DNA of 64,000 bases. Origin: Ruegeria faecimaris (GTDB taxonomy: Bacteria > Pseudomonadota > Alphaproteobacteria > Rhodobacterales > Rhodobacteraceae). The stretch spans positions 124,001 to 188,000 of the forward strand of contig NZ_FXTE01000004.1 in assembly GCF_900182615.1 (NCBI RefSeq). Direction: 5' to 3'. The notes beneath the pieces are model-generated. The model searched no databases. It was not told the DNA's origin and saw only the letters and a list, made by a program, of their open reading frames with translations. Made by a program: the position numbers and the translations under genes. Below are positions 3,351 to 17,589 of the stretch, piece by piece. Within the stretch, counting starts at the first letter, position 1. Each line of letters begins with the position of its first letter.

Positions 3351-5342
3351 TCACATATGATTACGCGGTACGGTATCCTCCTTAGTCTTTGAAAATACCA
3401 AACTGCCGTTTTCAAATGCCTTGAGTTCAGCACAGAGGTAGAAGTTTCCGGCGTCTGACCACATTTCGCAAGATGTTTCTGTACGCAGCTCTGTGCCGTC
3501 ACGGATTATCTCTTGTGTCCAATGGCAATATCCGCGCGCAGATAAGGGGTCATCAGGGCGAATCGACCAACGTTCAAAGGCTGTTCCGCCATGTGTCAGG
3601 CCGTGGTGGTTGTCCGTAACAAGGCCAAAGTCATCTTCGATAATCAGATGAGTTTCCCCCGAGTTCATGTCAGTTTCGACCTGTCGAGAGTTCCGGCTGT
3701 CTCGGACAGTCGTGATGTCGTGTGCGGCCTCGGCATCCGGGGGGGGGAATACATATGCCTCGCTAGCCGCGTGACGGATGGGCAGCTTGATTTGGCCCTC
3801 GGTCAGATGCAGTTCTGCAGACTCGGGCGAAGGCCAGATCAGCGGCCAATAGGCGCTGGATACCGCAATCCGCAAGCGGTGTCCCCTTGGCACCCGATAA
3901 GCGATATGGTCCAGATTCAGCGTGACCTCGTATACCTTGCCTGGGACCAATTCGGTCGGTTGCGAATGGGTATCGCGATGGCACAGGTTAAGGACACCGT
4001 ATGTTATGCGTGTTGTTGCCCCATCGGGATGGACGTGATTCAAGCGCACTGCCATCTGGGCATGGGGACGGTCGGCACTGATGTGCAGGCATATTTGCGG
4101 CGCGCCCACGATGTTCAGATCATTGGCCAGTGGGGCGCTGTCGAAACAGGCCGAAAATGCATCATCCACACGCTGATCGCCCGGCATATCCGGCCCCAAC
4201 CAGATGGCGCAGTATTCTCCGCCTTCCATCCCGCAGGTCTGGGGGGATCGGATGCACGTGTCCAGCGGTCCGGGTTGGTCCAGCCCAACATTAGAAATAT
4301 TCAGAGTTTGAATAGGAAGATGCGAGGTCGCGCCTTTATCCTCGGTTATCCAGCAACCGGGCCGTTCCTTGTACCAGCGCTGGGGGCGTACCCCATCCAT
4401 AAGATAGGCGCGATAGTCGGGTTCCTGGTCGACGCCAGTATCCTGGCCTTTCAACCAATGGTCCCACCAACGCAGGGCCTCTTGCAGAAATCCGATTCGG
4501 GGCTCCGGAACAGCAAAATGCGGATACTTGTGAACCCATGGTCCGACGATCCCCTTGACCGGAGAATCAAGCTGTTCAACCAATAAAGGCACCGTATTCT
4601 TATAGGCATCACCCCAGCCGCCAACAGCCAAAGTCGCCGCCCGGATAGCGCTGAAATCCTCGCAGACTGACCCGTGACGCCAATAGGCATCCCGAGTCTG
4701 ATGGCGCAACCAGACAGAGGGCAGAAAGGGCTCGTTCTCAAGGCGGTCCAGCCACAGCTCGCGCCAGTTCGGACGCAGGGCCGGATCGGGAGCGCGCGAT
4801 GAATAAGACCACATGGTCGCGCCCCAGCCGAGATTTTCGTTCAGCAGGCAGCCACCCTTGTAGTGGATGTCGTCCGCATACCGGTCGGCGGTCGAGCACA
4901 GCGTGATAATCGCCTTCAGCGCCTCTGGCTGTAGTGCCGCCACCTGCAAAGCATTGAATCCGCCCCAACTGATCCCCATCATTCCTACAGAACCAGAGCA
5001 CCACGGTTGCTGCGCCAGCCACTCGATAGTTGCAACTGCATCGTCCTGTTCCTGCTGGGTATACTCATCCTCCATCAGCCCTTCGCTGTCACCATTGCCG
5101 CGCATGTCCACGCGGATGCAGGCGTAGCCGCGCTTGGCAAACCAAGGATGGGTCAGGGCGTCTCGTGTCGCAGTGCCGTCGCGCTTGCGATAGGGCAGGA
5201 ACTCCAGAATGGCAGGTACAGGGTGGCTTTCTGCATGCGACGGCTTCCATATCCGGGCTGAAAGCCGGCACCCATCCGGCATGTGAATGCCGACATCTGG
5301 CAGGTCTTCGATGTCGAGTAGCGAATTGTCGGCTGGATTCAT
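3351..5342 (-). CDS. CocE/NonD family hydrolase (X-Pro dipeptidyl-peptidase S15-like)
   Basis: An alpha/beta hydrolase of 663 residues with a C-terminal jelly-roll domain, the CocE/NonD and X-Pro dipeptidyl-peptidase layout. The nucleophile elbow GISWGGFN puts the likely catalytic Ser at 125. FLPYRKRDGTATRD and RVDMRGNGDSEG (about 49-61 and 78-88) are typical of the family. The C-terminal region contains RLRIAVSSAYWPLIWPSP, characteristic of the PepX_C domain. No signal peptide is evident, so it is probably cytoplasmic. It is in line with the peptide-type ABC genes (125 bp upstream of the binding protein), which would fit hydrolysis of an imported peptide or amide. This is inference: the family also includes cocaine esterase and acylase-like enzymes. 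Confidence 0.85.
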   Translation of the reverse strand: MNPADNSLLDIEDLPDVGIHMPDGCRLSARIWKPSHAESHPVPAILEFLPYRKRDGTATRDALTHPWFAKRGYACIRVDMRGNGDSEGLMEDEYTQQEQDDAVATIEWLAQQPWCSGSVGMMGISWGGFNALQVAALQPEALKAIITLCSTADRYADDIHYKGGCLLNENLGWGATMWSYSSRAPDPALRPNWRELWLDRLENEPFLPSVWLRHQTRDAYWRHGSVCEDFSAIRAATLAVGGWGDAYKNTVPLLVEQLDSPVKGIVGPWVHKYPHFAVPEPRIGFLQEALRWWDHWLKGQDTGVDQEPDYRAYLMDGVRPQRWYKERPGCWITEDKGATSHLPIQTLNISNVGLDQPGPLDTCIRSPQTCGMEGGEYCAIWLGPDMPGDQRVDDAFSACFDSAPLANDLNIVGAPQICLHISADRPHAQMAVRLNHVHPDGATTRITYGVLNLCHRDTHSQPTELVPGKVYEVTLNLDHIAYRVPRGHRLRIAVSSAYWPLIWPSPESAELHLTEGQIKLPIRHAASEAYVFPPPDAEAAHDITTVRDSRNSRQVETDMNSGETHLIIEDDFGLVTDNHHGLTHGGTAFERWSIRPDDPLSARGYCHWTQEIIRDGTELRTETSCEMWSDAGNFYLCAELKAFENGSLVFSKTKEDTVPRNHM

Positions 5343-5393
5343 TCAGTCAGTCTCGGGGCCAAAAGGGTTTTGGTGCAGGTGAAAATCGTCAAA

Positions 5394-6497
5394 TCAGCTT
5401 CGGATTGCGACAATAAGGTCCATTACGTTGGTTCCGGTCGGCCCGGTGACGAAAAGAGCATTTGCGCGTTCCAGATAGCTGCCGCTGTCAGCATCCCGCA
5501 GCGCCTTTTCCGCACCATCGCCCCAAATGGTCCCGTCAACAATCGCCCCCGCGGCCTGGGTCGGCCCGTCGGTGCCGTCGGTGCCCCCGACAAGCAGCGT
5601 CAGCCCAGCAATACCCGCGATTTCTCTGGCCAACGCTAAAGCGAGGGCCTGATTGCGCCCACCCTTGCCTGGATTTCTGGGCAGCACGACAGTTGGCTCT
5701 CCACCGAAAACCATGACGCCTTCGGGCATATTGCGCAGCCGTGGCCCCAAACGGGCTGCTATGCTTTTCAGGTCATCGTGCAGGCATTCCTCATTCGCTA
5801 AAACGGGTGCGCCCTCGGCCATGGCCAGTCGGGCGGCGGCAGCACGGGCATGCTTGTTCGATGCAACGATGCGCGCAACTCCCTGAAAATCGCGCGGCTC
5901 AGGAAGTGCGCCAATGCCCGATCCGATAACGTTCAGGTCATCGCCGGGCACATCGGAAATCGCCAGTACAGTCGCCTTCGCTCCTTTGAACTGGGCCAAC
6001 AGGCCAGACCCTTTGATTTGGGACAGTTTGCGCCGTTCGGCGTTCATTTCAGAGATATTCAACCCTTCCGACAGCAGTTTTCGGTTCAACTGCTCCAGAT
6101 TCGCCAACGTTTTGCCGGGTACAAGGTCCTCAGCCAAAGACGAGGCCCCGCCCGAAGCCAGCAGCAGCAAATGCGAAGATGATCCCATCGACTGGACCAT
6201 CTCACGCAGTGCGCGGCCCGCTTGCAGACTGCGGATATCAGGAACGGGATGAGAGGCCTCGATCACCCTGACATGGTCAGGCAGGGCGTCCCCGTGGCCA
6301 TCCTTGGTGACAACCAAAGCGGGGAGGGGGCCGAAATGGTCCAGCGCTGCGCGGGTCATCGCCGCCGCAGCTTTGCCGACAGCTAAAATTTGGTCGGGCG
6401 CCTCGATATCATTCAGCGCCGTTAACGTCGCCGCATATCCACTAACCGCGTCAACTCCGGCCTGCCATATTCGGGTTGCCTTTTGCCTTTGCTCCAT
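5394..6497 (-). CDS. Glycerate 2-kinase (DUF4147/MOFRL family)
   Basis: Predicted class II glycerate kinase of 367 residues, phosphorylating D-glycerate to 2-phosphoglycerate with ATP in the glyoxylate/serine routes. Older annotations call it hydroxypyruvate reductase (TtuD). Landmarks are AVGKAAAAM near residue 40, the SGGASSL glycine-rich loop near 115, NAERRKLSQIKGSG near 154, and the C-terminal MOFRL segment GGRNQALALALA and GGTDGTDGPTQAAGA. It is somewhat shorter at the N-terminus than the roughly 420-residue members. The start ATG shares one base with the dtd stop, so translation is probably coupled. The CocE-type hydrolase gene begins 51 bp further on. Confidence 0.88.
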   Translation of the reverse strand: MEQRQKATRIWQAGVDAVSGYAATLTALNDIEAPDQILAVGKAAAAMTRAALDHFGPLPALVVTKDGHGDALPDHVRVIEASHPVPDIRSLQAGRALREMVQSMGSSSHLLLLASGGASSLAEDLVPGKTLANLEQLNRKLLSEGLNISEMNAERRKLSQIKGSGLLAQFKGAKATVLAISDVPGDDLNVIGSGIGALPEPRDFQGVARIVASNKHARAAAARLAMAEGAPVLANEECLHDDLKSIAARLGPRLRNMPEGVMVFGGEPTVVLPRNPGKGGRNQALALALAREIAGIAGLTLLVGGTDGTDGPTQAAGAIVDGTIWGDGAEKALRDADSGSYLERANALFVTGPTGTNVMDLIVAIRS

Positions 6498-6934
6498 CAG
6501 CTTTCGACCCAGATCGTGACCGGGCCGTCATTGACCAGTTCGACGGCCATATCCGCCCCGAATTGACCGGTTTCGACAGGGACGCCAAGAACACTTAGCC
6601 GATGCGCGAAAACCTCATACAAGCGTTTTCCAACCTCTGGCGGTGCCGCTTCAGAAAACCCCGGGCGGTTCCCGCGCGAGGTATCAGCGGCAAGTGTGAA
6701 CTGGCTGATTACTAGGGCCGAGCCGCCCATATCCAGAACCGACCTGTTCATCTTGCCGGCCTCATCCTTGAATATCCGCAGCTTTGAGACCTTGGCAGCA
6801 AGCTGTTCGGCCTTTTGGTCGTCATCCCCCTGCATCGCGCAAACCAGTATCAGCAGGCCCGGACCGGTTTGTCCGATCATTGCACCTCCTACCGAGACTT
6901 TTGCCAGCGAGACCCTCTGCAACAGCGCACGCAT
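6497..6934 (-). CDS. dtd: D-aminoacyl-tRNA deacylase
   Basis: Removes D-amino acids mis-attached to tRNA; a cytosolic quality-control dimer. It has 145 residues, normal for DTD. The conserved blocks are visible: [17 protein letters not shown] at the N-terminus, [20 protein letters not shown] in the middle (the SQFTL active-site strand), and [11 protein letters not shown] at the C-terminus, the NxGPVT motif that enforces chirality. I chose the ATG at 6934 over an upstream in-frame one because GGAGG lies 7 bases before it and homologues begin MRALLQRV. It is 20 bp downstream of the nitroreductase gene and touches the glycerate kinase gene. Confidence 0.95.
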
Positions 6935-6954
6935 TTGGTTCCTCCATTTGATGG

Positions 6955-7623
6955 TCAGTCGACCCACTCGACAAACGCGTCGGGCGCGGCGCGACTGGTT
7001 CTAAACCCGTTGGCCGGGTGGTCTTTGTCTGCAAAGCCGAAAGAGATCGCACATAGGATCAGACGGTCATCCGGGATGTTGAAATATCGATGCAGAAAAG
7101 GGCCATAGCTGGCCACTGCGGCCTGCGGAATTGTCGCTATGCCCAGAGCCTGCGCCGCCAGGGTGAAGGCCGTAACAAAGCCACCACAATCCATGGCGCC
7201 ATAAGCGCCGAGTTCCGTTGGGCTGGATATGATTGCACAATGGGGCGCTCCGAAAAGGGCGAAATTCTCCATCATCTGCCGGGTGGACCCGGCGCGATCT
7301 CCGCGTTCAACGCCAACGGCTTCGTAAAGGGCCCAGCCGCATTCACGGCGTCGTTCCTGGTAGATGCCCGAATAGGAGGCAGGAAAGGGCAGGTCCGGGG
7401 ATGGCGTGTCCGCGATTACCTCATCCTGCAGTGCCTTCCGAAGCTTATCGGTCTCTGGCCCGCTGGTGATGGTCACGTTCCAGGGCTGCGCATTGCACCA
7501 GCTTGGAACGCGGGCTGCGCTGGTCAGGATCTGATTAATCTGATCCTTTGGCACCGGGTCAGAAAGGAAGGCGCGGCAGGAATGCCGTTGATCCAGTAGA
7601 TTGTTCAGAGCGGATAGTGTCAC
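6955..7623 (-). CDS. Nitroreductase family protein
   Basis: FMN-dependent NAD(P)H oxidoreductase of the nitroreductase superfamily, about 222 residues. The [13 protein letters not shown] segment near the N-terminus and [14 protein letters not shown] about 30 residues later form the usual FMN-phosphate and Rossmann-like signature. [14 protein letters not shown] and [11 protein letters not shown] are the expected C-terminal blocks. I place the start at the GTG at 7623, since GGGGAGG stands 5 bases upstream. A TTG at 7683 opens the same frame but has no ribosome site. The physiological substrate is not predictable (nitroaromatics, quinones or flavin). It lies between the zinc-ribbon gene and dtd in a tightly packed minus-strand block. 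Confidence 0.88.
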
Positions 7624-7704
7624 ACAGGCCTCCCCATCGGCGTTGACAGGGCGCAGGATGATGTCAGACTGGCGGATGTTCAAGGGCTGATGCGGTCGGC
7701 AGGG

Positions 7705-8814
7705 TCACTGTTGACCGGTTGCCACCAGATAGCCAACACCGGCTGCCACCAGCAGGCCAAGGCACACGGCGACCGAGATTTTGAGCGCTGACCAGGGACG
7801 TTCACCCTGAACGCGCCCGGTGCGGCCGTTGACCACAAACCTGTAGGTCTGCCCCCGATATTTGTAGGCGGCCATCCAGATCGGTAATAGGACATGCTTG
7901 AAGGTCACATCCCGCACATCGGTCTCAACCGCATGAACGCGCTGCCGATCGCCACCAATATCAAAGCGTACATCCCGTTCGATCACGCGGGACATATGCG
8001 CGCGCGCTTCGGTGTAGCCGTCATTCAGTTCGACCGTATAGGCCTCGGCCCGAAAACCGGCGAGGTACTCAGGCTGATACGGTTCCAACGCGGGTAAATC
8101 CCAGGGTTCCAGCGCGTCGGTGTACTTCTTGGGCAAAGACTGGGATGCCAAAACCAGAACGTCATCAAAGAACCGTGCGACCCGGCCCGATTTCGGGGAC
8201 CATCTCACCTTGGCGACCCTTTGCTGTACACGCTTGCCATCGCGCATGACACTGCGTGTTTCATAGTAAACTATGCCGCGCTCGCCCCGATATGTGGATT
8301 TCGTATCCGCATCGAAGGTCCAGTATGGAACATAGATACCCTGCATCTTGCGCCCTTTGCGGGCATAATCCTTCAACCCGTTTGGGGCGAACCATAACCG
8401 TCCCAGCCAGTCTCCCATCGCTTTATGCGCCGTGCGCTCATCCAGCGCAAAGGGCAGCACACCGCGAGGTTTGATATGACGGCTGATGCCGGTATCGGTG
8501 ACGACCGGGGTTGCGCAAAAGGGGCATTCGGCTGCATGCGTGGCCGGGTCGAATTCAACCTGAGCCGCACAGTTGGGGCAGGTCAGAACACGCGTTTCCT
8601 CGATCTCATCGTCAGGCAGCTGATCCGAAAGCGCACTGTTGAAATCCAGCTCTTTCAGGCTGGCACCGCCCCACGGTCCGGCGCCAATCGCCTCGGAGTG
8701 ACCGCAATGGTCACAGGTGAGCGTACCATCATCGGGATTGAACCGATAATCCGCCCCGCATTGATCGCAGGGAAAGCGGTATTCGTCTACAATGTTAGGG
8801 TCGGTAGGGGCCAT
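7705..8814 (-). CDS. Zinc-ribbon membrane-anchored protein, possibly YdjG-like
   Basis: A 369-residue protein with two CxxC zinc ribbons at the N-terminus: CDQCGADYRF...CDHCG (residues 16-38) and CPNCAAQVEF...CPFC (about 79-100). A soluble beta-rich middle contains YVPYWTFDADTKSTYRGERG and VLLPIWMAAYKYRGQTYRFV. A single membrane helix, VAVCLGLLVAAGVGYLVA, ends the protein. This is a tail-anchored layout with the ribbons in the cytoplasm. Such proteins are often mislabelled as PriA-like helicases because of the zinc ribbon; no helicase motif is present. Bacillus YdjG, which is co-transcribed with pspA and an SPFH protein, has a comparable make-up, and an SPFH gene lies two genes upstream here. 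GAGG precedes the ATG. Function unknown; a role in membrane-stress sensing is inference from context. Confidence 0.8.
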   Translation of the reverse strand: MAPTDPNIVDEYRFPCDQCGADYRFNPDDGTLTCDHCGHSEAIGAGPWGGASLKELDFNSALSDQLPDDEIEETRVLTCPNCAAQVEFDPATHAAECPFCATPVVTDTGISRHIKPRGVLPFALDERTAHKAMGDWLGRLWFAPNGLKDYARKGRKMQGIYVPYWTFDADTKSTYRGERGIVYYETRSVMRDGKRVQQRVAKVRWSPKSGRVARFFDDVLVLASQSLPKKYTDALEPWDLPALEPYQPEYLAGFRAEAYTVELNDGYTEARAHMSRVIERDVRFDIGGDRQRVHAVETDVRDVTFKHVLLPIWMAAYKYRGQTYRFVVNGRTGRVQGERPWSALKISVAVCLGLLVAAGVGYLVATGQQ

Positions 8815-8832
8815 TGAAGCCTCGAATTTGCG

Positions 8833-9324
8833 TTATCGGCCAGAGGACAGGCGCATCCGGTTCAGCACCCCGTCCCGTTTGATGAAATGATGCCAGATGG
8901 CAAAGGCAGCGTGACCTAATGCGACGAACAACAGGGCATTGCCCACGGTTTCGTGGACCTCACCAGCAACGTGGATACCCCCGAACCAGGCCAACATGCC
9001 GAAGATTGGCACCGCGACCATCAGCGCATAAAGCAAGAGATGTCCCAACTTTGCTGCAGTCGCCATCAGGTCCGAGCTCTCCTCAACCGGGGTAGGCGCG
9101 CCCTGTCGCCACCGAAGAAGAATGCGGACCAGGATCAGCGCAAAGACGATGCAGCCAAGCCAGACATGAGGGGTGGCCCCTTCTGTCCAGACCGTGTTGC
9201 CCTCAAGCCGGGCATGCAGGGCCCGTCCCATGCCATCGCTGCTGATCCATTCGCCGATGATGATCACAGCGATCAGCCAGTGCAACACGATTTGGGGCAT
9301 TGAGTAGCGGTCCAAAGTAGACAT
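8833..9324 (-). CDS. Cytochrome b561 family protein
   Basis: Four-helix inner-membrane di-heme cytochrome b of 163 residues, the bacterial CybB type, expected to pass electrons between quinol and a periplasmic or membrane acceptor. Candidate heme-ligand histidines are QIVLHWLIAV (H15), TPHVWLG (helix 2), LGHLLLYALM (helix 3), and VHETVGNALLFVALGHAAFAIWHH (end of helix 3 to helix 4). The tail RDGVLNRM is typical of the family. It sits between the SPFH/GYF_2 gene (65 bp away) and the zinc-ribbon gene (18 bp away). In this context it might serve envelope redox balance, but that is not shown by the sequence. Confidence 0.9.
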   Translation of the reverse strand: MSTLDRYSMPQIVLHWLIAVIIIGEWISSDGMGRALHARLEGNTVWTEGATPHVWLGCIVFALILVRILLRWRQGAPTPVEESSDLMATAAKLGHLLLYALMVAVPIFGMLAWFGGIHVAGEVHETVGNALLFVALGHAAFAIWHHFIKRDGVLNRMRLSSGR

Positions 9325-9389
9325 TCGTTTGCTCTTTCAGAGAAGTTGCGGATACGCGTTAAACGTTGCTGCCTAAGCTTTCCGTCACT

Positions 9390-10538
9390 TCAGGCTCCGG
9401 GCGGGGGCGGCGGCAAGATCGTGAACAACTGCGCCAGTTCCTGTACCTCACCCGCCTTTTTCCAGCCGTCCTGACCGGCGGTCCAGACATGGGTGTCTCG
9501 TGTGATCTCTCCGTCTGTCGCCATGCGGCCCATCTTGGCCTTGGAAAATGGCCCGCTGGTTTGCCCGTCAACGGCGATATGCCAGACATGTTCCACTGGC
9601 GGTGGCGGCGGAGGCGCCGTATGCGCCGCAGGTTGCTGGGCAGCGGGGGCGGAACCGCCCCACGGACCGCTCGGCTGACCCGCTGCCATGTTCGACATCT
9701 GCTGTGCCATGGCCATGCCCATTCCCATGCCAAGGCCAGCGCCCATGCCACCGCCCTGACCGGGATTGTTGGCCGCGGCTGTCATCGCCTCAGCGGCTGA
9801 ATACTGGGTGAATTTACCCAGATCACCAGCCAGCCCCATCGATGTCCGCTTGTCCAGCGCCGCTTCAACTGCGGGTGGCAGTGAGATGTTCTCGATATAA
9901 AATTCAGGCATCTCCAGCCCGTACCCGTCCAAGACCGGGGTCACTTCTGCCGCGATCAACTTGCCCAGATCGGCGGTATTGGCGGCCATGTCCAGAACCG
10001 GAATGCCTGATCCTGCGATGACCCGGCTGAATTCCTGAACGATGATATTGCGCACCTGAAAGCTGATCTCGTCCATCGTGAACTCACCATCGGTGCCGAC
10101 GATTTCGATCATGAATTTTGCTGGGTCTTTGACCCGGGTTGTATAAGTACCGAAAGCGCGAATGCGGGTCGGTCCGAATTCCGGATCGCGCAGCATGATC
10201 GGATTCTTGGTGCCCCATTTCAGGTCATTGAAGCGAGTCGTGTTGACGAAATAAATCTCGGATTTGAACGGAGACTGAAAGCCATGGTCCCAATGCTGCA
10301 GTGTCGTCAGGATCGGCATATTGTTGGTCTCGAGCATATAGAGACCGGGAGTGAAGACATCCGCCAGCTGCCCCTCATGCACGAAAACGGCCGCCTGGCC
10401 TTCGCGCACGGTCAGTTTGGCGCCGTATTTGATCGCATGGCCCTCGCGTTCGAACCGCCAGACCATCGTATCGCGGGTGTCGTCGACCCAGTGGATGACG
10501 TCGATGAACTCGCCGGACAGAAAATCGAAAATACCCAT
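9390..10538 (-). CDS. SPFH-domain protein with C-terminal GYF_2 domain (YdjI/virion-core type)
   Basis: A 382-residue protein. Residues 1-240 form an SPFH/band-7-like domain of the YdjI or 'virion core protein' branch: WVDDTRDTMVWRF, AVFVHEGQLADVFTPGLY, FGTYTTRVKDPAKFM and LPPAVEAALDKRTSM. Residues about 245-280 are a Gly/Met/Ala-rich linker. A Pro-rich stretch follows, and the last 70 residues are a GYF_2 domain (HVWHIAVDGQTSGPFSKAKM...WTAGQDGWKKAGEV), a putative proline-rich-peptide binder. There is no membrane helix, so it probably assembles on membranes from the cytoplasm. AAGGAG stands 8 bases before the ATG. The neighbours TelA, XpaC-like, DUF2927 and zinc-ribbon proteins suggest an envelope-stress scaffold (inference). 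Confidence 0.88.
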   Translation of the reverse strand: MGIFDFLSGEFIDVIHWVDDTRDTMVWRFEREGHAIKYGAKLTVREGQAAVFVHEGQLADVFTPGLYMLETNNMPILTTLQHWDHGFQSPFKSEIYFVNTTRFNDLKWGTKNPIMLRDPEFGPTRIRAFGTYTTRVKDPAKFMIEIVGTDGEFTMDEISFQVRNIIVQEFSRVIAGSGIPVLDMAANTADLGKLIAAEVTPVLDGYGLEMPEFYIENISLPPAVEAALDKRTSMGLAGDLGKFTQYSAAEAMTAAANNPGQGGGMGAGLGMGMGMAMAQQMSNMAAGQPSGPWGGSAPAAQQPAAHTAPPPPPPVEHVWHIAVDGQTSGPFSKAKMGRMATDGEITRDTHVWTAGQDGWKKAGEVQELAQLFTILPPPPPGA

Positions 10539-10560
10539 TTGGGGTCTCCTTATCTTGGGC

Positions 10561-11520
10561 TCACAGCTGCTGGCCCATCAGTTCGCGCGCAATGATCCGC
10601 ACCACGGGACGCGCGTCTTCGACAGCCACGCCAGGCTCAAGACGCGGGTCATAGAGCATTGTCAGTAATTTCTCGTCATGGCTGGTCAGCAGCGCAAATT
10701 CATCGTCATCATTAAAGATGGATGGTCGCGCAGCGTTGCTGTCATTGGAGAGTCCCAGCCCCTGCGCCATTTCTTCATGGATGCAACTGCGCCGCAGCAT
10801 ATCAGGCAATTCAGCACGGATCAGCACCACCGCCCGAACAAACCGGTGCAGGGACCGGTTGGTCGGAGACGCGATGACAAAACAGTCAATATTTGAACGC
10901 GGGTTTGCAACCAGGTCAAGCAATGGCTGATCGATGCCAGGTACAAGCTGTTTCAGGCGGGAGACCACGTATGCACCGTCATCCTTTCCCGCGAAAAAGA
11001 CATGGAAATTTGCCTTGCGGGTAACGACAGACATCGGATGACCGGTCACTTTGGACAGCCGCGCGGTAAAGGTCTCGACCTGTTCGGCATCCTTTGCCCG
11101 CATTTCGGGGGACACAGACGGGGCGAATTCTGTCTGAACACGGATGGGGGCGGACCATCGGCTAAGCTGGCCCTCGGTCGAGTATGTGGTCGCGGTGACG
11201 GCGTGATCTGGATACTCGTTGAAAAAGGCAATCGTCTCGAAATTGCGCTCCAGATCGCTGGCATCATAAGGAGTGTCCGGCCCGCCGCCATCGCTGCGCA
11301 GCATACCACGCGTCAGCAGGTCACGTTCTACCCGCTGATAGAACCGCGCCAGATCCTGACTGGCCGCAGATGGAGGTACATAGGCATTGAGGGCAGGCGC
11401 TGGGGGGGCTACGGGGCGCGGTTGAGGGGCAACCGAAGACGTCAGGGCCTCGTCGCAGTTGGCCAGCGCCAGCAATGCGACCAGACCCAATACGGGCTTC
11501 AGATATCCCTGTGACCGCAC
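10561..11520 (-). CDS. DUF2927 family lipoprotein
   Basis: An exported lipoprotein of about 319 residues. The N-terminus reads YLKPVLGLVALLALANCDEA, a signal peptide with a lipobox ending in the Cys to be lipidated. A Pro/Ala-rich linker follows, then the conserved domain. Near the C-terminus (10741-10782) is SCIHEEMAQGLGLSND, which resembles the HExxHxxG zinc site of metzincin proteases, but the second His is replaced; activity is therefore doubtful. I chose the GTG at 11520 (GGTGGA 6 bases upstream). The same frame stays open further upstream inside telA, but that part lacks a signal peptide logic. It is 22 bp before the SPFH gene, so the two are likely co-transcribed. Function unknown. Confidence 0.78.
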   Translation of the reverse strand: MRSQGYLKPVLGLVALLALANCDEALTSSVAPQPRPVAPPAPALNAYVPPSAASQDLARFYQRVERDLLTRGMLRSDGGGPDTPYDASDLERNFETIAFFNEYPDHAVTATTYSTEGQLSRWSAPIRVQTEFAPSVSPEMRAKDAEQVETFTARLSKVTGHPMSVVTRKANFHVFFAGKDDGAYVVSRLKQLVPGIDQPLLDLVANPRSNIDCFVIASPTNRSLHRFVRAVVLIRAELPDMLRRSCIHEEMAQGLGLSNDSNAARPSIFNDDDEFALLTSHDEKLLTMLYDPRLEPGVAVEDARPVVRIIARELMGQQL

Positions 11521-11533
11521 CTTCAATCCACCA

Positions 11534-12724
11534 TCAGCCCGGAACAGCTGTTCCGGCGTTGTCACCGATACCGTCCTTGCGCGCTTTGGCTGCGGCCAAA
11601 GTGTCGCGCAGTTCGGTTTCCATCTTCTGCAGCTCTTGCTCGGCAGCGGCGCGTTTGGCCTTGCCTTCATCCGCAATCTCCAGGCTTTCATTGATGGTTC
11701 CGATCAGATCGGCATTGGCCTGTTTTACGGCCTCGATATCAAAGACACCGCGCTCCATTTCCTGACGGATCACCTTGTTCGACTCGCGCAGGTTGGCGGC
11801 ATTCGCGGTCAGAAGGTCGTTGGTTAGGTCATTCGCATCGCGCACGGCGGCGGCGGCCTCGGCGCTGCGCTGAATGGTGACGGCTTGTGCCAGCTGGGTT
11901 TCCCAGAGAGGCACGGTGTTCACCAGGGTCGAGTTGATCTTGGTCACCAGAGATTTGTCATTTTCCTGAACCAGACGGATCGAGGGCAGCGACTGCATGG
12001 TGACCTGTCGCGTCAGCTTCAGATCATGCACCCGGCGTTCCAGATCATCGCGCGCAGCACGCAAATCGCGCAGCTCCTGCGCTTTCATCACCTGATCCTC
12101 TTCGGGCGCGGCCTGAACCTCGGCCTCTTTCTGAGGAATGTCCTGACTGTCCAGTTCGTTCAGCTTCTCTTCGCCGGCCGCGATGTAAAGCGCCAGCTCA
12201 TCATAAAAGCCCAGCGTCTTTTCATACAGGATGTCCAGGGACTTGATGTCCTTCAACAGCGTATGTTCATGCGAAAGCAAGTCATCCGTGATCCGGTCGA
12301 TCTGGCCTTGAACCTGTTCGTATTGGGCGGTGAACTTGGCGAACGGGGCGGCCTTGCCCAACAGTTTTTCCCACCAGCTACGCTCGCGCCGCACGTCGAG
12401 TTCGCTGACCGAGAATCCACGGATCGTGGTCACGATATGACGCAGGCTGTCACCTGCCGGACCGACATCCTTGTTGCGTACATCCGCCAGCATCGCCTGG
12501 CTGATTTCCTGCAACTCGGCCTGCGCACCCGAGCCGAAGGACACGATGGAATTCGTGTTCCCCATGTCGATCTCGCCCATGCGTTTACGAATTTCAGCAC
12601 CTACAGGCTCGTCGGCCTCTTTAAGAAGGACAATTTCCGCCGTGGGGTCAGGCAGGGCGACGGCGGTCACTTCCTGTACCAGCGTTTCGGCTTCGACTGC
12701 CTTGTTCTTTACTTCCTCGGACAT
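11534..12724 (-). CDS. Toxic anion resistance protein TelA family
   Basis: A 396-residue, largely alpha-helical cytoplasmic protein of the TelA/YaaN family, linked to tellurite resistance and to cell-envelope stress in other bacteria. Family blocks are the GEIDMGNTNSIVSFGSG start, WWEKLLGK followed by FAKFTAQYEQVQGQIDRI (about 130-155), SHEHTLLKDIKSLDILY, and LWETQLAQAVTIQRSAEAA with TNDLLTANAANL near 305-335. Long coiled-coil regions occupy the middle and end. The ATG at 12724 has AGAGAGG upstream and begins MSEEVKNKAVE; the longer frame upstream has no such signal. The XpaC-like gene lies 31 bp upstream, the same pairing as xpaC-yaaN in Bacillus. Confidence 0.92.
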   Translation of the reverse strand: MSEEVKNKAVEAETLVQEVTAVALPDPTAEIVLLKEADEPVGAEIRKRMGEIDMGNTNSIVSFGSGAQAELQEISQAMLADVRNKDVGPAGDSLRHIVTTIRGFSVSELDVRRERSWWEKLLGKAAPFAKFTAQYEQVQGQIDRITDDLLSHEHTLLKDIKSLDILYEKTLGFYDELALYIAAGEEKLNELDSQDIPQKEAEVQAAPEEDQVMKAQELRDLRAARDDLERRVHDLKLTRQVTMQSLPSIRLVQENDKSLVTKINSTLVNTVPLWETQLAQAVTIQRSAEAAAAVRDANDLTNDLLTANAANLRESNKVIRQEMERGVFDIEAVKQANADLIGTINESLEIADEGKAKRAAAEQELQKMETELRDTLAAAKARKDGIGDNAGTAVPG

Positions 12725-12755
12725 GGGGTAATCCTCTCTGTATACTTCGGGCCGG

Positions 12756-13670
12756 TCAGTCCAACCGAACGCCTTCGCGCTGCAACCGTTCGCGCAGCAC
12801 GTCAATTTCAACCGTCAGATCGCTGCGGTCATCCAATAGCATCTTACGGGTCCTGGCAGAGAAATTCTGTTCCAGGTCATCCAGAAGAGACGAGTAATTC
12901 TGCAGCGACTGTGCATCACGTGTTCTGGCATAAACATCCGAGAACTTTACCGTCGCGTCACGGGCACCCTGCAGATAGACGGTCAGGTATTTTCTTGCTC
13001 CGGCCAGATCGCGCGGGTCTTCTTCGACGGTGCGAAACAAATCGCGGGCAGTTTCCTGAAATCGCTCGACCCGCGCTTCGATCCGGCGGTCCCCAGCACG
13101 TTTGATGGCGTCGGTCATTTCGGTCAGATGCACCTCAGCGTCTTCGACTACCCGTGCGACACGGTCCTGCTGAAAGGTATCGATGCCTTCCATGCCTTTG
13201 TCTGACACAGGGTCCAGGCCGAAGGAAACGGAATGCAACACAGCAGCGGCGGTGCCGAATAAAACTGGGGCGATGAGGCTGGCGTCAGACACGGTTGCCG
13301 CATCGAGAAACTCGGATCGGTATGAGGCCAACCCGGCGCCAAGGCCGGTCAGAACGCTGGAAAATATCTTGCGGGGAATTGCCGGGCGCCGTGCGGTGCG
13401 CCGCGCGTTATAGGCCGCTTCGGCCCGCAACCCTTCGCGCAGCAGAAAGGCCGCCCCGGTCAGCAAACCAGCGGCAACAAGTCCAATGGTCATCCCGATT
13501 GCACCGTCGTTCAGCGACAGAAACACCAATGGAACAGCCGGGATAAACAGGATATTGGCCCGCGCGCCAGCCGGTTCGACGCGCGCGCCATCAAACTGAC
13601 CGCGCGCCGGTTGATCTGTCGACGAATCTGAGTCGTGTGGGCTGTATTTGCCGCCAAAGCGTTTGGCCAT
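12756..13670 (-). CDS. XpaC-like protein (5-bromo-4-chloroindolyl phosphate hydrolysis family)
   Basis: A 304-residue protein of the family named after Bacillus XpaC. Residues 40-75 hold two adjacent membrane segments (ILFIPAVPLVFLSL and GMTIGLVAAGLLTGAAFLL). A third hydrophobic stretch lies near 107-145, and the rest is a helical cytoplasmic domain rich in charged residues (RVARVVEDAEVHLTEM, ARKYLTVYLQGARDATVKF). The C-terminal helical part is the conserved region. The phosphatase name comes from one old phenotype; no phosphatase motif is visible. It is always of interest next to telA, as here (31 bp). The 29-residue peptide gene ends 4 bp before its start. Confidence 0.82.
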   Translation of the reverse strand: MAKRFGGKYSPHDSDSSTDQPARGQFDGARVEPAGARANILFIPAVPLVFLSLNDGAIGMTIGLVAAGLLTGAAFLLREGLRAEAAYNARRTARRPAIPRKIFSSVLTGLGAGLASYRSEFLDAATVSDASLIAPVLFGTAAAVLHSVSFGLDPVSDKGMEGIDTFQQDRVARVVEDAEVHLTEMTDAIKRAGDRRIEARVERFQETARDLFRTVEEDPRDLAGARKYLTVYLQGARDATVKFSDVYARTRDAQSLQNYSSLLDDLEQNFSARTRKMLLDDRSDLTVEIDVLRERLQREGVRLD

Positions 13671-13674
13671 GTGC

Positions 13675-13764
13675 TTACAGCCCTCCCAGTAACCCGGTGC
13701 AGACGCCGAACAACAGAACCAATAAGGCCACGTAGGCCAGTTTTTGTACTCCGGACCCGGACAT
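13675..13764 (-). CDS. Small membrane peptide, 29 residues, first gene of the telA cluster
   Basis: Short reading frame coding MSGSGVQKLAYVALLVLLFG followed by VCTGLLGGL. It is a single hydrophobic helix with almost no soluble part, so a one-pass membrane peptide. Support for translation: an AGGGAG ribosome site 6 bases before the ATG, a stop only 4 bp before the XpaC-like start, and the same strand as the whole block. It is below the usual length cut-off of gene callers. I do not recognise a family. It may be a subunit or regulator of the XpaC/TelA membrane complex, which is inference from position alone. Confidence 0.6.
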   Translation of the reverse strand: MSGSGVQKLAYVALLVLLFGVCTGLLGGL

Positions 13765-13844
13765 GATGCTCCCTGAGTTTCTCTTTGCGGAAAACTTAGG
13801 GGATGCGCGGCCCCGGCGCTAGGGGGAAGGTTACCTAACCCTTA

Positions 13845-14654
13845 TCATTTGCGAGATTTCTTGCCGATCGGAGGCCGTTTGCGCTGTGGTCGTGCAGGGC
13901 GTTTGGCCGGAGCCTCTGGCTCAGCCTCAAGACCAAGCTGATCACGCATGACCCGGCGGCGAATTTCCTCGACCTCTCCGGGTTTCAGTTTGCCCAACTG
14001 AAATGGGCCGTACGAGACGCGCAGCAACCGGTTCACGGCAAAGCCGATATCCTCGACCGCGCGGCGGATTTCGCGGTTTTTACCTTCGCGCAGGCCAATG
14101 GTCAGCCAGGCGTTTGCGCCCTGTTGCCGATCGAGTGTTACATCCATCGGTTGGAACCGTTCACCCTCGATCACCAGCCCCTTTCGGAGCGGCGCGAAAT
14201 CCTCGTCTTTTGGACGCCCGTTTACACGGACGCGGTATCTGCGCAGCCATCCGGTGGCAGGAAGTTCCAGCTTGCGCTTGATGCCGCCATCATTTGTCAG
14301 CAACAGCAACCCTTCCGAGTTCAGGTCAAGCCGCCCGACGCTCATGACGCGGGGCATGTCCTCGGGCAACTTGTCGAAGATCGTCGCGCGGCCTTTTTCG
14401 TCCTTCGTCGTCGTAACCAGACCGGGTGGCTTGTGGTACAGCCAAAGACGTGACGGTTCCGGCTCGGACACAGGCTTGCCGTCGACGGTGATCTTGTCTT
14501 TGGCGGTAACGTTCAGCGCGGGGCTGTCGATGGTCTTGCCGTTCACAACCACACGACCTGCTTCGATCATGCGTTCCGCTTCCCGGCGCGAGGCGACGCC
14601 AGCGCGGGCAAGGACTTTGGCGATCCGGTCGCCTGGAGGAGGGGTATTAGTCAT
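13845..14654 (-). CDS. rRNA pseudouridine synthase, RluB/RsuA family
   Basis: Isomerises a uridine of 23S (RluB/E/F-like) or 16S (RsuA) rRNA, 269 residues. An N-terminal S4 RNA-binding domain (RIAKVLARAGVASRREAERM) is followed by the catalytic domain, with the active-site Asp in VGRLDLNSEGLLLLTNDG and the conserved GLREGKNREIRR near 200. The C-terminus is a basic tail (RPARPQRKRPPIGKKSRK). I start at the ATG at 14654 (MTNTPPPGDRIAK). The longer upstream frame overlaps the divergent tadA gene and has no family similarity. The basic tail and length favour RluB over RsuA, but this is not settled by sequence alone. Confidence 0.9.
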   Translation of the reverse strand: MTNTPPPGDRIAKVLARAGVASRREAERMIEAGRVVVNGKTIDSPALNVTAKDKITVDGKPVSEPEPSRLWLYHKPPGLVTTTKDEKGRATIFDKLPEDMPRVMSVGRLDLNSEGLLLLTNDGGIKRKLELPATGWLRRYRVRVNGRPKDEDFAPLRKGLVIEGERFQPMDVTLDRQQGANAWLTIGLREGKNREIRRAVEDIGFAVNRLLRVSYGPFQLGKLKPGEVEEIRRRVMRDQLGLEAEPEAPAKRPARPQRKRPPIGKKSRK

Positions 14655-14715
14655 TTGCAGCCCATAGCGCATCCCGCCGCCTTGCGAAAGGCAGGTTTCT
14701 GATGCAGTCAGAGGC

Positions 14716-15171
14716 ATGGAGTTCAAATCGTACATGGATATCGCGCTTGAGCAGGCGCGCGAAGCCGGTGAACGCGGCGAAGTTCCGGTAGGGGCTGCTA
14801 TCGTGCTGGGCGACCGGGTTGTCGCCGTGGCAGGCAATCAGACACGCGAGTTGAACGACCCAACCGCACATGCCGAGATACTGGCCCTGCGCGCCGCCTG
14901 TGTTGCGACCGGATCGGAACGCCTGATTGACCACGACATCTATGTCACACTGGAACCCTGCGCGATGTGCGCCGCGGCTTTGGCCGCCGCTCGTGTTCGG
15001 CGGATCTATTACGGGGCCTCTGATCCCAAATCGGGTGGGGTAGCTCACGGGGCGCGGGTGTTTTCCCATCCACAGTCGCACCATAAACCCGAAGTGTTTG
15101 ACGGTATTGCCGCCAAGGATTGCGAAGCCCTGCTGCGCGAATTCTTCACCAAAAAGAGGGACAGTAAATAA
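14716..15171 (+). CDS. tadA: tRNA(adenine34) deaminase TadA
   Basis: Deaminates A34 to inosine in the anticodon of tRNA-Arg(ACG). It has 151 residues. The cytidine/deoxycytidylate deaminase zinc site is complete: HAEIL (His52, catalytic Glu54) and PCAMC (Cys82, Cys85). GEVPVGAAIV upstream is the usual substrate-pocket strand, and GGVAHGARVF with HHKPEVFDG near the C-terminus is typical of TadA rather than of cytosine deaminases. It is divergent from the pseudouridine synthase gene with 61 bp between them. Confidence 0.95.
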   Translation: MEFKSYMDIALEQAREAGERGEVPVGAAIVLGDRVVAVAGNQTRELNDPTAHAEILALRAACVATGSERLIDHDIYVTLEPCAMCAAALAAARVRRIYYGASDPKSGGVAHGARVFSHPQSHHKPEVFDGIAAKDCEALLREFFTKKRDSK

Positions 15172-15196
15172 TCTGGGTTGGGACCGGCCTGCGGTG

Positions 15197-16177
15197 CTAG
15201 GGTTTGGCCCAGTCCACGCGATAGACCGTCTGTGGCCCACCGAACCCCTTTAGTTGAGCGGAAATCGGAGCGCTGAACTGTAGCCCGGCGGTCGCGCCCA
15301 GCAGCAATCGGGTAACGTCGGTGACAAGAATTTCATTCGCGCCACAAAGGCCAGTCACCCGTGCGGCCTTATTGACCACCGATCCAAAGAAATCCTCGTC
15401 CCGCTGAATGACATCGCCGGTATGAATGCCAACCCGAAGACCCAAGGGTATATCCGACTGTAGGGCCGCATTTTCCCTTTGGAATTCGGTCGCCGCTTGG
15501 ATCGCGTCGTGGACAGAGGAGAAGATCGACATCGTGCCATCCCCAAGTGATTTGACCAGTCGGCCGCCATGGGTGTGAATCAGATTTTCAGCCAGATCGA
15601 AATGGCTGGATATGAGCGCGGTCCATTTGTGATCTCCGACCTTACGCGTAATTTCAGAAGAACCCGCGATATCAGTAAACATGACCGATGCCGCGCCCTC
15701 TTGTTGATCCTGAATGAATTCCTGCCGAGCTGCCGCGATCAATGCGTTCAGCGCTTCATGCTCGATCCCGATTTTCTCCATGTTCGAAGTCGGGTTGGAG
15801 ACATGCATCTGGATCATCTTCCAGACACCGTTTTCCAGATGCAATACAAAGGTGAACCTATGGAGTGTGGCTTTGCCGTTTGATGTGAATGCAAGTGTTG
15901 CTTCGCAATGGGCCCATCCTATGTCTCCGCATTCAAACGCCTCGAGCGAATGTTCGTCCCAGCTGAAATCCGGAATTTCGCGGGTGTGGTCGGCAAAGCC
16001 CTGGCGGAACACCTGTCCGGACCAGCTTTCGCCATCTGCCGACCCCTGATACCGCAGATGTTCAGATGACGAGAGCAGGTTCATCAGCGCGGCGCGATCC
16101 TTGAGGCGAACCGCATCATTCCAGCGCCGTATGACAGCGACCAGTTCTGGAGAGGGTGTTACCGCGTTACTCATCAA
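15197..16177 (-). CDS. SnoaL-like domain fused to class III adenylate/guanylate cyclase
   Basis: A 326-residue soluble protein. Residues 1-130 look like an NTF2/SnoaL-like fold (VIRRWNDAVRLKDRAALMNL, WKMIQMHVSNP), a pocket that often binds a small ligand. A short helical linker leads to a cyclase homology domain from about residue 160: FTDIAGSS supplies the first metal Asp (169), VKSLGDGTM the second (213), GIHTGDV follows, and NKAARV carries the transition-state Asn and Arg. All catalytic residues appear present, so an active cAMP-forming homodimer is likely. The ligand of the N-terminal domain is unknown. The UPF0173 hydrolase gene lies 4 bp upstream (16182), so the two are probably co-transcribed. 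Confidence 0.85.
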   Translation of the reverse strand: MMSNAVTPSPELVAVIRRWNDAVRLKDRAALMNLLSSSEHLRYQGSADGESWSGQVFRQGFADHTREIPDFSWDEHSLEAFECGDIGWAHCEATLAFTSNGKATLHRFTFVLHLENGVWKMIQMHVSNPTSNMEKIGIEHEALNALIAAARQEFIQDQQEGAASVMFTDIAGSSEITRKVGDHKWTALISSHFDLAENLIHTHGGRLVKSLGDGTMSIFSSVHDAIQAATEFQRENAALQSDIPLGLRVGIHTGDVIQRDEDFFGSVVNKAARVTGLCGANEILVTDVTRLLLGATAGLQFSAPISAQLKGFGGPQTVYRVDWAKP

Positions 16178-16181
16178 GCGG

Positions 16182-16874
16182 CTACAGCTTGATGGCTTGC
16201 ATCAGCTGCGGTTCGATCACCTCGACACCCGGCAAACCGTCCGCCAGCACCTGCGCGGATTGCTCCAGAATCGGGAAGGTCTTGTAATGGCAGGGAATCA
16301 CGGTTTTGAAATTGAAATAGCGCTTTGCAGCATAGGCGGCGCCTTTCATGTCCATGGTAAAGTGGCCCCCTGCGGACAGGATACCTATATCGGGTTTATA
16401 GTAATCCCCCATCCAGTCCATATCGGCCATGATATCGGTGTCGCCCGAAACATAGAGCATGTGCCCCTCGGATGAGATCATGAAACCGACCTCGCTGCCG
16501 CCGGTGCGCAGCCCGTCTGGGGTCGAAAATGTCGAGCTGTGCGAGGCGGGTACCATCGAGACCATAACACCGTTCAGGTTGACCGTGCCGCCTTTGTTGA
16601 AGCCGACTGTTTCCAGACCCTCGGCTTCGCTCCAGTACCCCATTAGGTCATACTGACCGACCACGGGGACGTTCAGATGTTTGGCCAATGAGACAACGTC
16701 AACAACATGATCGAAATGCGTGTGTGTCAGCAGGATATGTGTCGCGCCTTCCAAAGCAGCGTCATGCTGATCTTCAGGCAAAACGGGGTTGCCGGTCAGC
16801 CAAGGGTCGATCAGCAGAACCTGTCCTGCTGTTTCAATGCGAAAGCTGCCATGCCCAAGCCAGATGATATTCAT
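16182..16874 (-). CDS. UPF0173 metal-dependent hydrolase (metallo-beta-lactamase fold)
   Basis: A 230-residue MBL-fold hydrolase of the UPF0173/YtkL-like group. The metal site HTHFDH (His51, His53, Asp55, His56) is intact. YVSGDTDI gives the bridging Asp and IPCHYKTFPILEQS the last His. The N-terminus NIIWLGHGSFRIE is the family signature. The ATG at 16874 is preceded by GGGAG; the longer frame upstream is not family-like. The substrate is unknown: members have been linked to ribonuclease, phosphodiesterase or lactonase activities without general assignment. It shares a likely transcript with the cyclase gene 4 bp downstream. Confidence 0.9.
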   Translation of the reverse strand: MNIIWLGHGSFRIETAGQVLLIDPWLTGNPVLPEDQHDAALEGATHILLTHTHFDHVVDVVSLAKHLNVPVVGQYDLMGYWSEAEGLETVGFNKGGTVNLNGVMVSMVPASHSSTFSTPDGLRTGGSEVGFMISSEGHMLYVSGDTDIMADMDWMGDYYKPDIGILSAGGHFTMDMKGAAYAAKRYFNFKTVIPCHYKTFPILEQSAQVLADGLPGVEVIEPQLMQAIKL

Positions 16875-16932
16875 GAAAAGCACTCCCAAATGAACTGTTG
16901 GCAGCAGACTAGCATCGGGTATGTAAAATTTC

Positions 16933-17589
16933 ATGGATTGGTTTCGGGAAATTGACAGTTATTGCGAGCGCTTATCGCCTGCCTATTGGGCAGAGCCGAT
17001 AAATGCGGTTACGAATGCCGCCTTTTTGATTGCGGCTTTCATTATGTGGCGGCGGGTGCGCGGGCCGGGGATGCCATTGGCAAAAATGCTTGTGGTTATC
17101 CTGGTCGGCATCGGAATTGGCAGTTATTTGTTTCACACCCATGCACAGGTCTGGTCCGCGTTGGCGGATACAGCACCCATCCTGCTTTTTATCCTGACCT
17201 ATATTTTTGCAATGAATCGCGACGTCTGGCAGTTGCGGCCGCTTTACGCGTGGATCGGCGCGGCCCTGTTTGTGCCATATGCCGCTTTGACGATTCCGGT
17301 GTTCCAACTGATTCCGGGTCTGGGCGGATCGGCCGCCTATGCTCCGGTGCCGCTATTGATCCTGATTTACGCAATCCTGTTGTCGAAACGCCGGCCTGAT
17401 ACCGCCCGCGGGCTGGCGACCGGCGCAGTGATCCTGATCGTGTCGATTACCTTTCGCGCTTTGGACGCACCGATTTGCATGCAGTTCCCGACTGGCACGC
17501 ATTTTCTGTGGCACATCCTGAACGCCACGATGTTGGGCTGGATGATCGAGGTCTACCGCAGGCACCTAAGCCGTGCGTCTCAGGCCTGA
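16933..17589 (+). CDS. Ceramidase-like (CREST superfamily) membrane protein
   Basis: A 218-residue protein with about seven membrane helices, of the alkaline ceramidase family (PF05875-type) in the CREST hydrolase superfamily. The N-terminus YCERLSPAYWAEPINAVTNA has the conserved E-P-x-N-x-x-(S/T)N. SYLFHTHAQVWSALADTAPI supplies the conserved His, Ser and Asp, and GTHFLWHILNA gives the HxxxH zinc pair. Bacterial members are of uncertain substrate; an amide or ester lipid is likely from the superfamily. It is divergent from the UPF0173 gene, and its last 10 bases overlap the 3' end of the convergent DUF4202 gene. Confidence 0.85.
   Translation: MDWFREIDSYCERLSPAYWAEPINAVTNAAFLIAAFIMWRRVRGPGMPLAKMLVVILVGIGIGSYLFHTHAQVWSALADTAPILLFILTYIFAMNRDVWQLRPLYAWIGAALFVPYAALTIPVFQLIPGLGGSAAYAPVPLLILIYAILLSKRRPDTARGLATGAVILIVSITFRALDAPICMQFPTGTHFLWHILNATMLGWMIEVYRRHLSRASQA

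Follow-up and report, generated by a model that had tools for sequence, protein, structure and literature searches.

Seven genes lie in series on the minus strand, from position 13764 to 7705, of a 64,000-nucleotide (nt) stretch of the Ruegeria faecimaris genome (contig NZ_FXTE01000004.1, positions 124,001 to 188,000; hereafter the window), and in this operon the genes for an XpaC-like membrane protein and TelA are joined to those for an SPFH protein and a zinc-ribbon protein (ZnR). The genome comprises 4.1 Mb in 38 contigs, and the nearest named relatives of its TelA belong to Ruegeria, mostly at 90-93% identity. From the first gene onward, the operon contains:

13675..13764, minus strand: microprotein of 29 amino acids (aa) with a single transmembrane (TM) segment, the first gene of the operon
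12756..13670, minus strand: XpaC-like membrane protein (PF10112, E 1.1e-27, residues 105-292), with a hydrophobic N-terminal half
11534..12724, minus strand: TelA (PF05816, E 4e-108), 396 aa from its ATG
10561..11571, minus strand: DUF2927 lipoprotein (PF11150, E 8.9e-57), start codon uncertain
9390..10538, minus strand: SPFH + GYF_2 protein (Band_7_1, E 1e-100; C-terminal GYF_2, E 4.9e-22)
8833..9324, minus strand: cytochrome b561 (PF01292, E 2.6e-24)
7705..8814, minus strand: ZnR, a double zinc-ribbon, tail-anchored protein (Zn_ribbon_RRN7, E 3.3e-9, residues 11-41)

An original prediction for this DNA had described an eight-gene minus-strand cluster; the cluster, its domains and its order are borne out, and the count is corrected to seven, the number in the prediction's own list as well as here. 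The intergenic gaps of 4 to 65 base pairs that it gave are correct, save for a possible overlap of telA and the DUF2927 gene, for which an alternative GTG start at ~11520, just 3' of telA, would yield a normal lipoprotein signal. Opposite telA and xpaC, a 406-aa open frame at 11885-13105 (+) is probably a shadow of codon bias.

Gene order and co-loss in the Rhodobacteraceae

A profile search of 149 genomes of Rhodobacteraceae recovered TelA in 133, with one full match each except in two genomes that had fragments. We selected 40 of the 133 TelA loci, on large contigs and one per genus, fetched 18 kb around each, and scored synteny with profiles built from the window's own genes. XpaC-TelA-SPFH-ZnR occurred in the same order and on the same strand in 37 of these 40 genera, within the broader family order XpaC-TelA-(DUF2927)-SPFH-(cytochrome b561)-zinc-ribbon, and the three exceptions comprised two split operons and one locus with an inverted ZnR gene (L065). 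The PF10112 and PF05816 genes were adjacent in 39 of the 40. A second set, termed named loci, was formed from the best 80 of 123 relatives and hence mostly from close ones; the four core genes were ordered in 71 of them, seven of the other nine were cut by contig ends, one had SPFH and ZnR inverted (L185), and one gave no ZnR match (L139). Conservation of the gene order lies far beyond chance, and the scattering among relatives that would speak against a cluster was not seen.

The surroundings were conserved as well, with an rluB-like gene upstream in 34/40 family loci, dtd downstream in 28/40, and both in 25/40, which therefore marks a core genomic place; because this place is fixed, we infer vertical inheritance of the module. 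DUF2927 was located within 37/40 loci, was not found in two (L034, L044), and lay elsewhere in the genome of the remaining one (L042). The cytochrome b561 gene was encountered at nine of the 40 family loci and 12 of the 80 named loci, between SPFH and ZnR whenever it was within the order, and is an optional passenger. Hence, of the three parts that had been proposed as lineage-specific, only the cytochrome is optional; the lipoprotein and the leading peptide (39/39, see below) are nearly fixed.

We then searched the 16 TelA-less family genomes for SPFH, ZnR and XpaC. Thirteen also lacked all three, and in the other three SPFH or ZnR lay at contig starts, a pattern which suggests that the assembly was interrupted within the module. 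SPFH matches came from four of the 16 (one full-length from contig base 35, two contig-start fragments, and one 44-residue GYF-only match), and the first three of these four also gave the only ZnR matches; XpaC exceeded its cut-off in none, with one match below it. The two split operons had different breakpoints and retained both halves: in G018, microprotein-XpaC-TelA lies at C1:258k and DUF2927-SPFH-ZnR at ~C1:217-222k (L042, L209), while in G104 rluB-microprotein-XpaC lies at 3.876 Mb and TelA-DUF2927-SPFH-ZnR at 0.15 Mb (L059, L210). XpaC-TelA-SPFH-ZnR behaves as a core, all-or-none module.

Microprotein, control region and component proteins

The first gene was sought in relatives as a hydrophobic open reading frame (ORF) of 18-60 codons ending -10 to +6 nt from the start of the XpaC match. 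Such an ORF was present in 39/39 family loci with XpaC beside TelA and in 80/80 named loci; the same routine, applied before other genes as a control, returned 1/40, 0/37, 1/39, 1/39, 1/36 and 1/19, and at random places 55/2400. Between the window and L049, the microprotein gene has 18 synonymous and six non-synonymous differences, and across 49 sequences of 29 aa the ratio of non-synonymous to synonymous differences (pN/pS) was 0.36; these sequences share invariant glycines and an LGGL at the C-terminus. When all 40 diverse sequences were pooled, the signal was weaker, at 0.67, with saturated sites and imperfect alignment. Judged from these sequences, the peptide has been conserved as a microprotein and is under strong purifying selection in close pairs. 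In other genera the peptide is longer, at 56-71 aa, and in most cases has an additional, N-terminal TM segment (L032, L036, L042, L043, L070, L140, L143, L151, L157, L165, L177, L187, L191), and neither form had a significant match in Pfam or NCBIfam. Hydrophobic short ORFs also lie near outgroup xpaC genes, and are suggestive only as counterparts. Some genera, Salipiger among them, have an extra XpaC-like gene that has diverged (E 1e-35 to 1e-62) and is placed after the rluB-like gene and before the microprotein gene; it was seen in L066, L145, L149, L161 and further named loci in which XpaC matched twice.

Two blocks precede the microprotein gene:

13819..13828, minus strand: conserved promoter-region block TTCCCCCTAG, with 2 copies in the 4.1-Mb genome
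13791..13800, minus strand: second block CCTAAGTTTT, 18 nt beyond the first, a possible -10 element

Together they form TTCCCCCTAG-N18-CCTAAGTTTT (13791-13828), which occupies the interval from 27 to 64 nt ahead of the ATG of the microprotein. Of 79 named loci, 47 have the first block no further than 200 nt in front of the microprotein gene, and no copy turned up in any other part of the stretches examined; among the 47, the spacing to the second block was 18 in 21 and 19 in three, and the other 23 fell outside the pattern used. Because the exact first block was present in only nine of 32 one-per-genus loci examined, it is a clade feature and not family-wide, and the paired blocks are probably a promoter or operator for part of the family, including Ruegeria and Roseovarius. 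The two genome copies of the first block compare with three for the reversed control pattern, and the second copy (C1:1253486) falls within the 3'-terminal part of a gene identified by eye as rsmH; a wider regulon was rejected, this copy being intragenic and probably there by chance. Allowing one mismatch gave two matches in the window, equal to the chance expectation. No sigma-70 consensus site was detected before the operon, terminator-like sites (14 versus 9.1, standard deviation 3.5) were not clearly over background, and an Rfam search of window positions 5000-17000 returned no match.

The lipoprotein carries the motif HEExxQxLGLxND ... LLxMLYDxRL, which pointed to a metzincin before modelling. 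An AlphaFold2 model built from 38 sequences had a mean predicted local distance difference test score (pLDDT) of 83.1. In a Foldseek search of the PDB its top rows were matrix metalloproteinases (MMPs), with MMP-11 the sole match at E <= 0.001 (8.8e-4); VIA-align placed the model on MMP-7 with Z 11.9 over 147 residues and a root-mean-square deviation of 2.7, and all 50 VIA matches listed were MMPs or karilysin (Z 10.7-11.9). Aligned by eye, E266, Q270 and N276 of the DUF2927 protein take the positions of the three zinc histidines, and E267 that of the catalytic Glu. E266, E267, G273 and N276 are invariant, as are C230 and C263, and Q270 is nearly so; every module copy has H265, which is seldom seen elsewhere. 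EExxQxxGxxND occurs in 37 of 38 module copies; in the exception (L037), Q and D are both replaced by H. Outside the family, 20 of 24 loci carry the motif, two others have G or D for N (L242, L245), one has R for Q (L243), and one is unreadable (L244). The canonical zinc motif HExxHxxGxxH/D was found in none of 30 DUF2927 loci scanned. The model superposes on almost the whole catalytic domain of matrixins (MMP/karilysin, M10), unlike which the protein is a bacterial lipoprotein with EExxQxxGxxND in place of HExxHxxGxxH. Its fold is thus predicted to be matrixin-like, and its site is altered yet conserved; this site may hold a different metal, perform other chemistry, or belong to a binding pseudoenzyme.

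DUF2927 is not limited to the module, being present in 64 of 387 genomes of the class Alphaproteobacteria. The R. faecimaris genome itself has two copies, the second of which (G000:C1:298278-298877, minus strand) lies in an open frame of 464 aa, and additional copies were observed in relatives (G055, G166, G359, G075, G076). An acidic +2 rule for retention of the lipoprotein in the inner membrane was discarded, D or E occupying this position in only 69 of the 111 proteins with a lipobox (116 examined), which makes no strict rule. No paper naming DUF2927 was found in the literature searched.

Hydropathy placed segments of the XpaC-like protein within residues 35-76 and 127-145, and gave no TM segment for TelA, which is long and helical. 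A structure model of TelA has helices at 126-205 and 208-313, with a mean pLDDT of only 70. An ESCRT-III/PspA or BAR fold was considered for TelA, but only generic helical bundles were matched: the comparison with the ESCRT-III helical hairpin gave, for this low-confidence model, a best VIA Z of 12.5 among mixed helical bundles, which for such folds is in the chance range. No PspA or ESCRT-III chain was among the VIA matches listed, which does not by itself exclude the fold, and the few BAR-domain chains among them were given no weight. ZnR has one C-terminal TM segment (residues 346-364) and four CxxC motifs, at residues 16, 34, 79 and 97, and its second zinc-ribbon-like stretch (residues 78-111) matched PF08271 at E 3.7e-4, under the cut-off of that family. 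SPFH (Band_7_1) proteins swap their C-terminal parts, with GYF_2, HTH_17, a weak SHOCT match and a double zinc ribbon among those observed (L077, L104-L107, L109, L110).

PspA and distribution outside the family

PspA (PF04012) had no match in the R. faecimaris genome, in agreement with the proposal of a module without PspA; the same search was positive in nine of 14 control genomes. Across the wider samples, PspA was over the cut-off in 25/149 family genomes, leaving 124 without, and in 67/387 class genomes. Five PspA regions (L092, L094, L095, L096, L098) were examined as possible sites of the SPFH-ZnR pair, and were set aside with no match to either profile.

TelA exceeded the cut-off in only 33 of the 387 class genomes, six of them from the Rhodobacteraceae. 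Twenty-four of the 27 extra-family genomes were inspected, and six loci in four families contained XpaC-TelA-SPFH-ZnR (L076, L077, L079, L080, L082, L100), with no DUF2927 match and with no PspA in any of the six genomes. In a wider search of the phylum, TelA was present in 82/397 genomes, 13 of which came from other classes; of the 11 inspected, one held the four-gene core (L194), and L195 had XpaC-TelA and then a short SPFH/GYF_2 protein. The full core of L194 resides on a 14.7-kb contig and may stem from transfer or contamination. A different TelA module was observed in other alphaproteobacterial families (L083:6395-9548, L196:8718-11936): there, a lipoprotein that has solute-binding and VWA domains comes after TelA, and XpaC after the lipoprotein.

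Plasmids carry parts of the module. The SPFH-ZnR pair occurs alone on plasmids of Vibrio, Comamonas and Tsukamurella, a strong ZnR match was obtained in three of seven plasmid regions inspected outside the family, and a Paracoccus megaplasmid has TelA-DUF2927-SPFH-ZnR, with XpaC not annotated alongside. In a Novosphingobium plasmid (L106) the SPFH gene adjoins DUF4178, DUF350 and polyamine genes. Genes of the DUF4178/DUF350 type are linked to PspA operons. Polyamine genes have been linked to them as well (PMC11237479; here and below, statements on cited papers refer to the available portions of those papers).

Possible function, known systems and alternatives

The suggestion that two Bacillus-type modules have merged, the XpaC-TelA pair being joined to the SPFH/zinc-ribbon pair in one operon, fits the locus. 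To our knowledge, the mechanism of the stress-induced TelA and XpaC has not been worked out. The merger makes sense because both source operons in B. subtilis are sigma-W controlled, xpaC-yaaN, pspA-ydjGHI and yceC-H all being listed as such (PMC3498285). Recruitment of PspA to the Bacillus membrane requires the SPFH protein YdjI together with YdjG/YdjH, and YdjI also affects membrane fluidity (PMC8581546). Like pspA-ydjG-ydjH-ydjI, the window has an SPFH gene with a double zinc-ribbon, TM-anchored protein, an architecture that matches the description of YdjG (PMC11237479); the likeness of ZnR and SPFH to YdjG and YdjI is one of architecture only. Unlike it, the cluster lacks PspA and TPM and has TelA, XpaC, the microprotein and DUF2927. 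With xpaC-yaaN of Bacillus, Listeria and Lactococcus it shares XpaC followed by TelA, the same families by name, the difference being that those are described as a pair and are here joined to SPFH-ZnR, the microprotein and the lipoprotein. The KlaB/TelA tellurite determinants of conjugative plasmids likewise contain a TelA family member with one or two neighbouring genes, but at 28.5-28.6% identity to the window's TelA, and SPFH, ZnR, XpaC and DUF2927 are not named in the two annotated regions. The families are known but their arrangement is new, and two of the parts have, as far as searched, no earlier description. No paper describing the joined operon was found in the literature searched, whose coverage excluded most subscription papers, and TelA and XpaC go unmentioned in the main text, in the portions available, of the survey of phage-shock-protein partners by Ravi et al. 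(PMC11237479).

By analogy with these relatives in another phylum, a membrane-stress role would be expected, and we consider it about an even call that the operon is a core envelope-stress module with which bacteria of the Rhodobacteraceae type maintain their inner membrane, with TelA recruited by an SPFH/ZnR platform. In favour of this reading are the conserved order, the joint loss, the split operons with both halves retained, the recurrence of the four-gene core outside the family, and the findings on the Bacillus operons. Lactococcal xpaC and telA, moreover, are listed in the putative CesSR envelope-stress regulon and respond to membrane-protein overproduction, under which their double deletion partly impaired growth (PMC3139573), and a telA disruption made Listeria 4-fold more susceptible to nisin (PMC12791056). 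The microprotein and the multi-TM XpaC would then form a membrane anchor, and the tail-anchored ZnR with the SPFH protein an inner-leaflet platform comparable to Bacillus YdjG/H and YdjI. Helical TelA would be the recruited effector, a peripheral protein brought to the platform upon membrane damage in the position that PspA has in Bacillus, while the DUF2927 lipoprotein might bind a ligand or damaged protein in the periplasm and the cytochrome would be a passenger. A more specific version, in which this is a PspA-independent membrane-repair machine whose SPFH/ZnR platform recruits TelA via XpaC and the microprotein and is coupled to a metzincin-fold lipoprotein with E-Q-N for H-H-H, appears rather doubtful.

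Several observations weigh against the envelope-stress module. PspA and TelA are not mutually exclusive: in the class, PspA was present in 13 of 33 genomes with TelA versus 54 of 354 without, so that the two co-occur more, not less, and in the family it was similarly frequent with TelA (22/133) and without (3/16). The idea that TelA replaces PspA therefore cannot rest on phyletic pattern, which is unsupportive of TelA in PspA's place. The TelA model, at pLDDT 70, bears no clear relation to PspA or ESCRT-III, no YdjH/TPM match was obtained among the seven cluster proteins (E up to 0.1, cluster only), and the SPFH protein ends in GYF_2, whereas the Bacillus one is described with a terminal zinc ribbon (PMC11237479). 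Moreover, the four-gene core was absent from each of seven further alphaproteobacterial TelA loci inspected from the phylum search.

The cluster might instead form an SPFH platform of the HflKC/prohibitin kind that assembles inner-membrane proteins or controls their quality, in which case TelA and XpaC would act as adaptors and the periplasmic DUF2927 domain would handle substrates. Membership of the SPFH protein in the Band_7_1 family and the position of the cytochrome, when in order, between SPFH and ZnR are consistent with this, as is the behaviour of lactococcal xpaC and telA, whose expression rose 10.3- and 3.4-fold when membrane proteins were overproduced (PMC3139573); we judge it unlikely, given that the cluster contains no FtsH-like protease or chaperone and that the scanned DUF2927 loci are without the canonical zinc motif. 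The name TelA suggests an operon chiefly for resistance to tellurite or other oxyanions, and chromosomal telA is listed among the tellurite-resistance loci of R. sphaeroides (PMC6955997, citing O'Gara 1997); TelA relatives are also common on conjugative plasmids (563 records, 518 conjugative). Yet the partners, SPFH, zinc-ribbon, lipoprotein and microprotein, are not redox or efflux families, and disruption of telA in Listeria raised susceptibility to nisin 4-fold and changed that to tellurite only 2-fold (PMC12791056). As tellurite alone would hardly retain the gene in 133/149 genomes, we find this explanation quite improbable.

That the operon is two independent housekeeping pairs with only a promoter in common would accord with the SPFH-ZnR pairs found alone on plasmids and with the grouping of TelA, in further alphaproteobacterial families, with XpaC and different partners, but is very unlikely in view of the all-or-none loss within the family and the retention of both halves after splits. 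The case for a phage-defence or bacteriocin-immunity system draws on the ability of envelope modules to protect against membrane-active peptides and on the effect of Listeria telA on nisin tolerance (PMC12791056). There was, however, no convincing PADLOC match (best E only 0.019), and occurrence in 133/149 family genomes, with rluB-like and dtd genes on both sides in 25/40 loci, is unlike mobile defence islands; this explanation is barely credible, and the 'toxin/phage-responsive' character that had been predicted is not supported for this core locus.

For the preferred reading of an envelope-stress module, gene order and co-loss tie TelA and XpaC to an SPFH platform of the type that recruits PspA in Bacillus, and their partners thereby become directly testable; the matrixin-like fold gives a testable idea for DUF2927. 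The more specific membrane-repair machine would, if true, be a counterpart of the phage-shock system in a family that, among the sampled genomes, mostly lacks PspA. With no PspA match in 124/149 family genomes, the module may be a main membrane-maintenance module of the Rhodobacteraceae.

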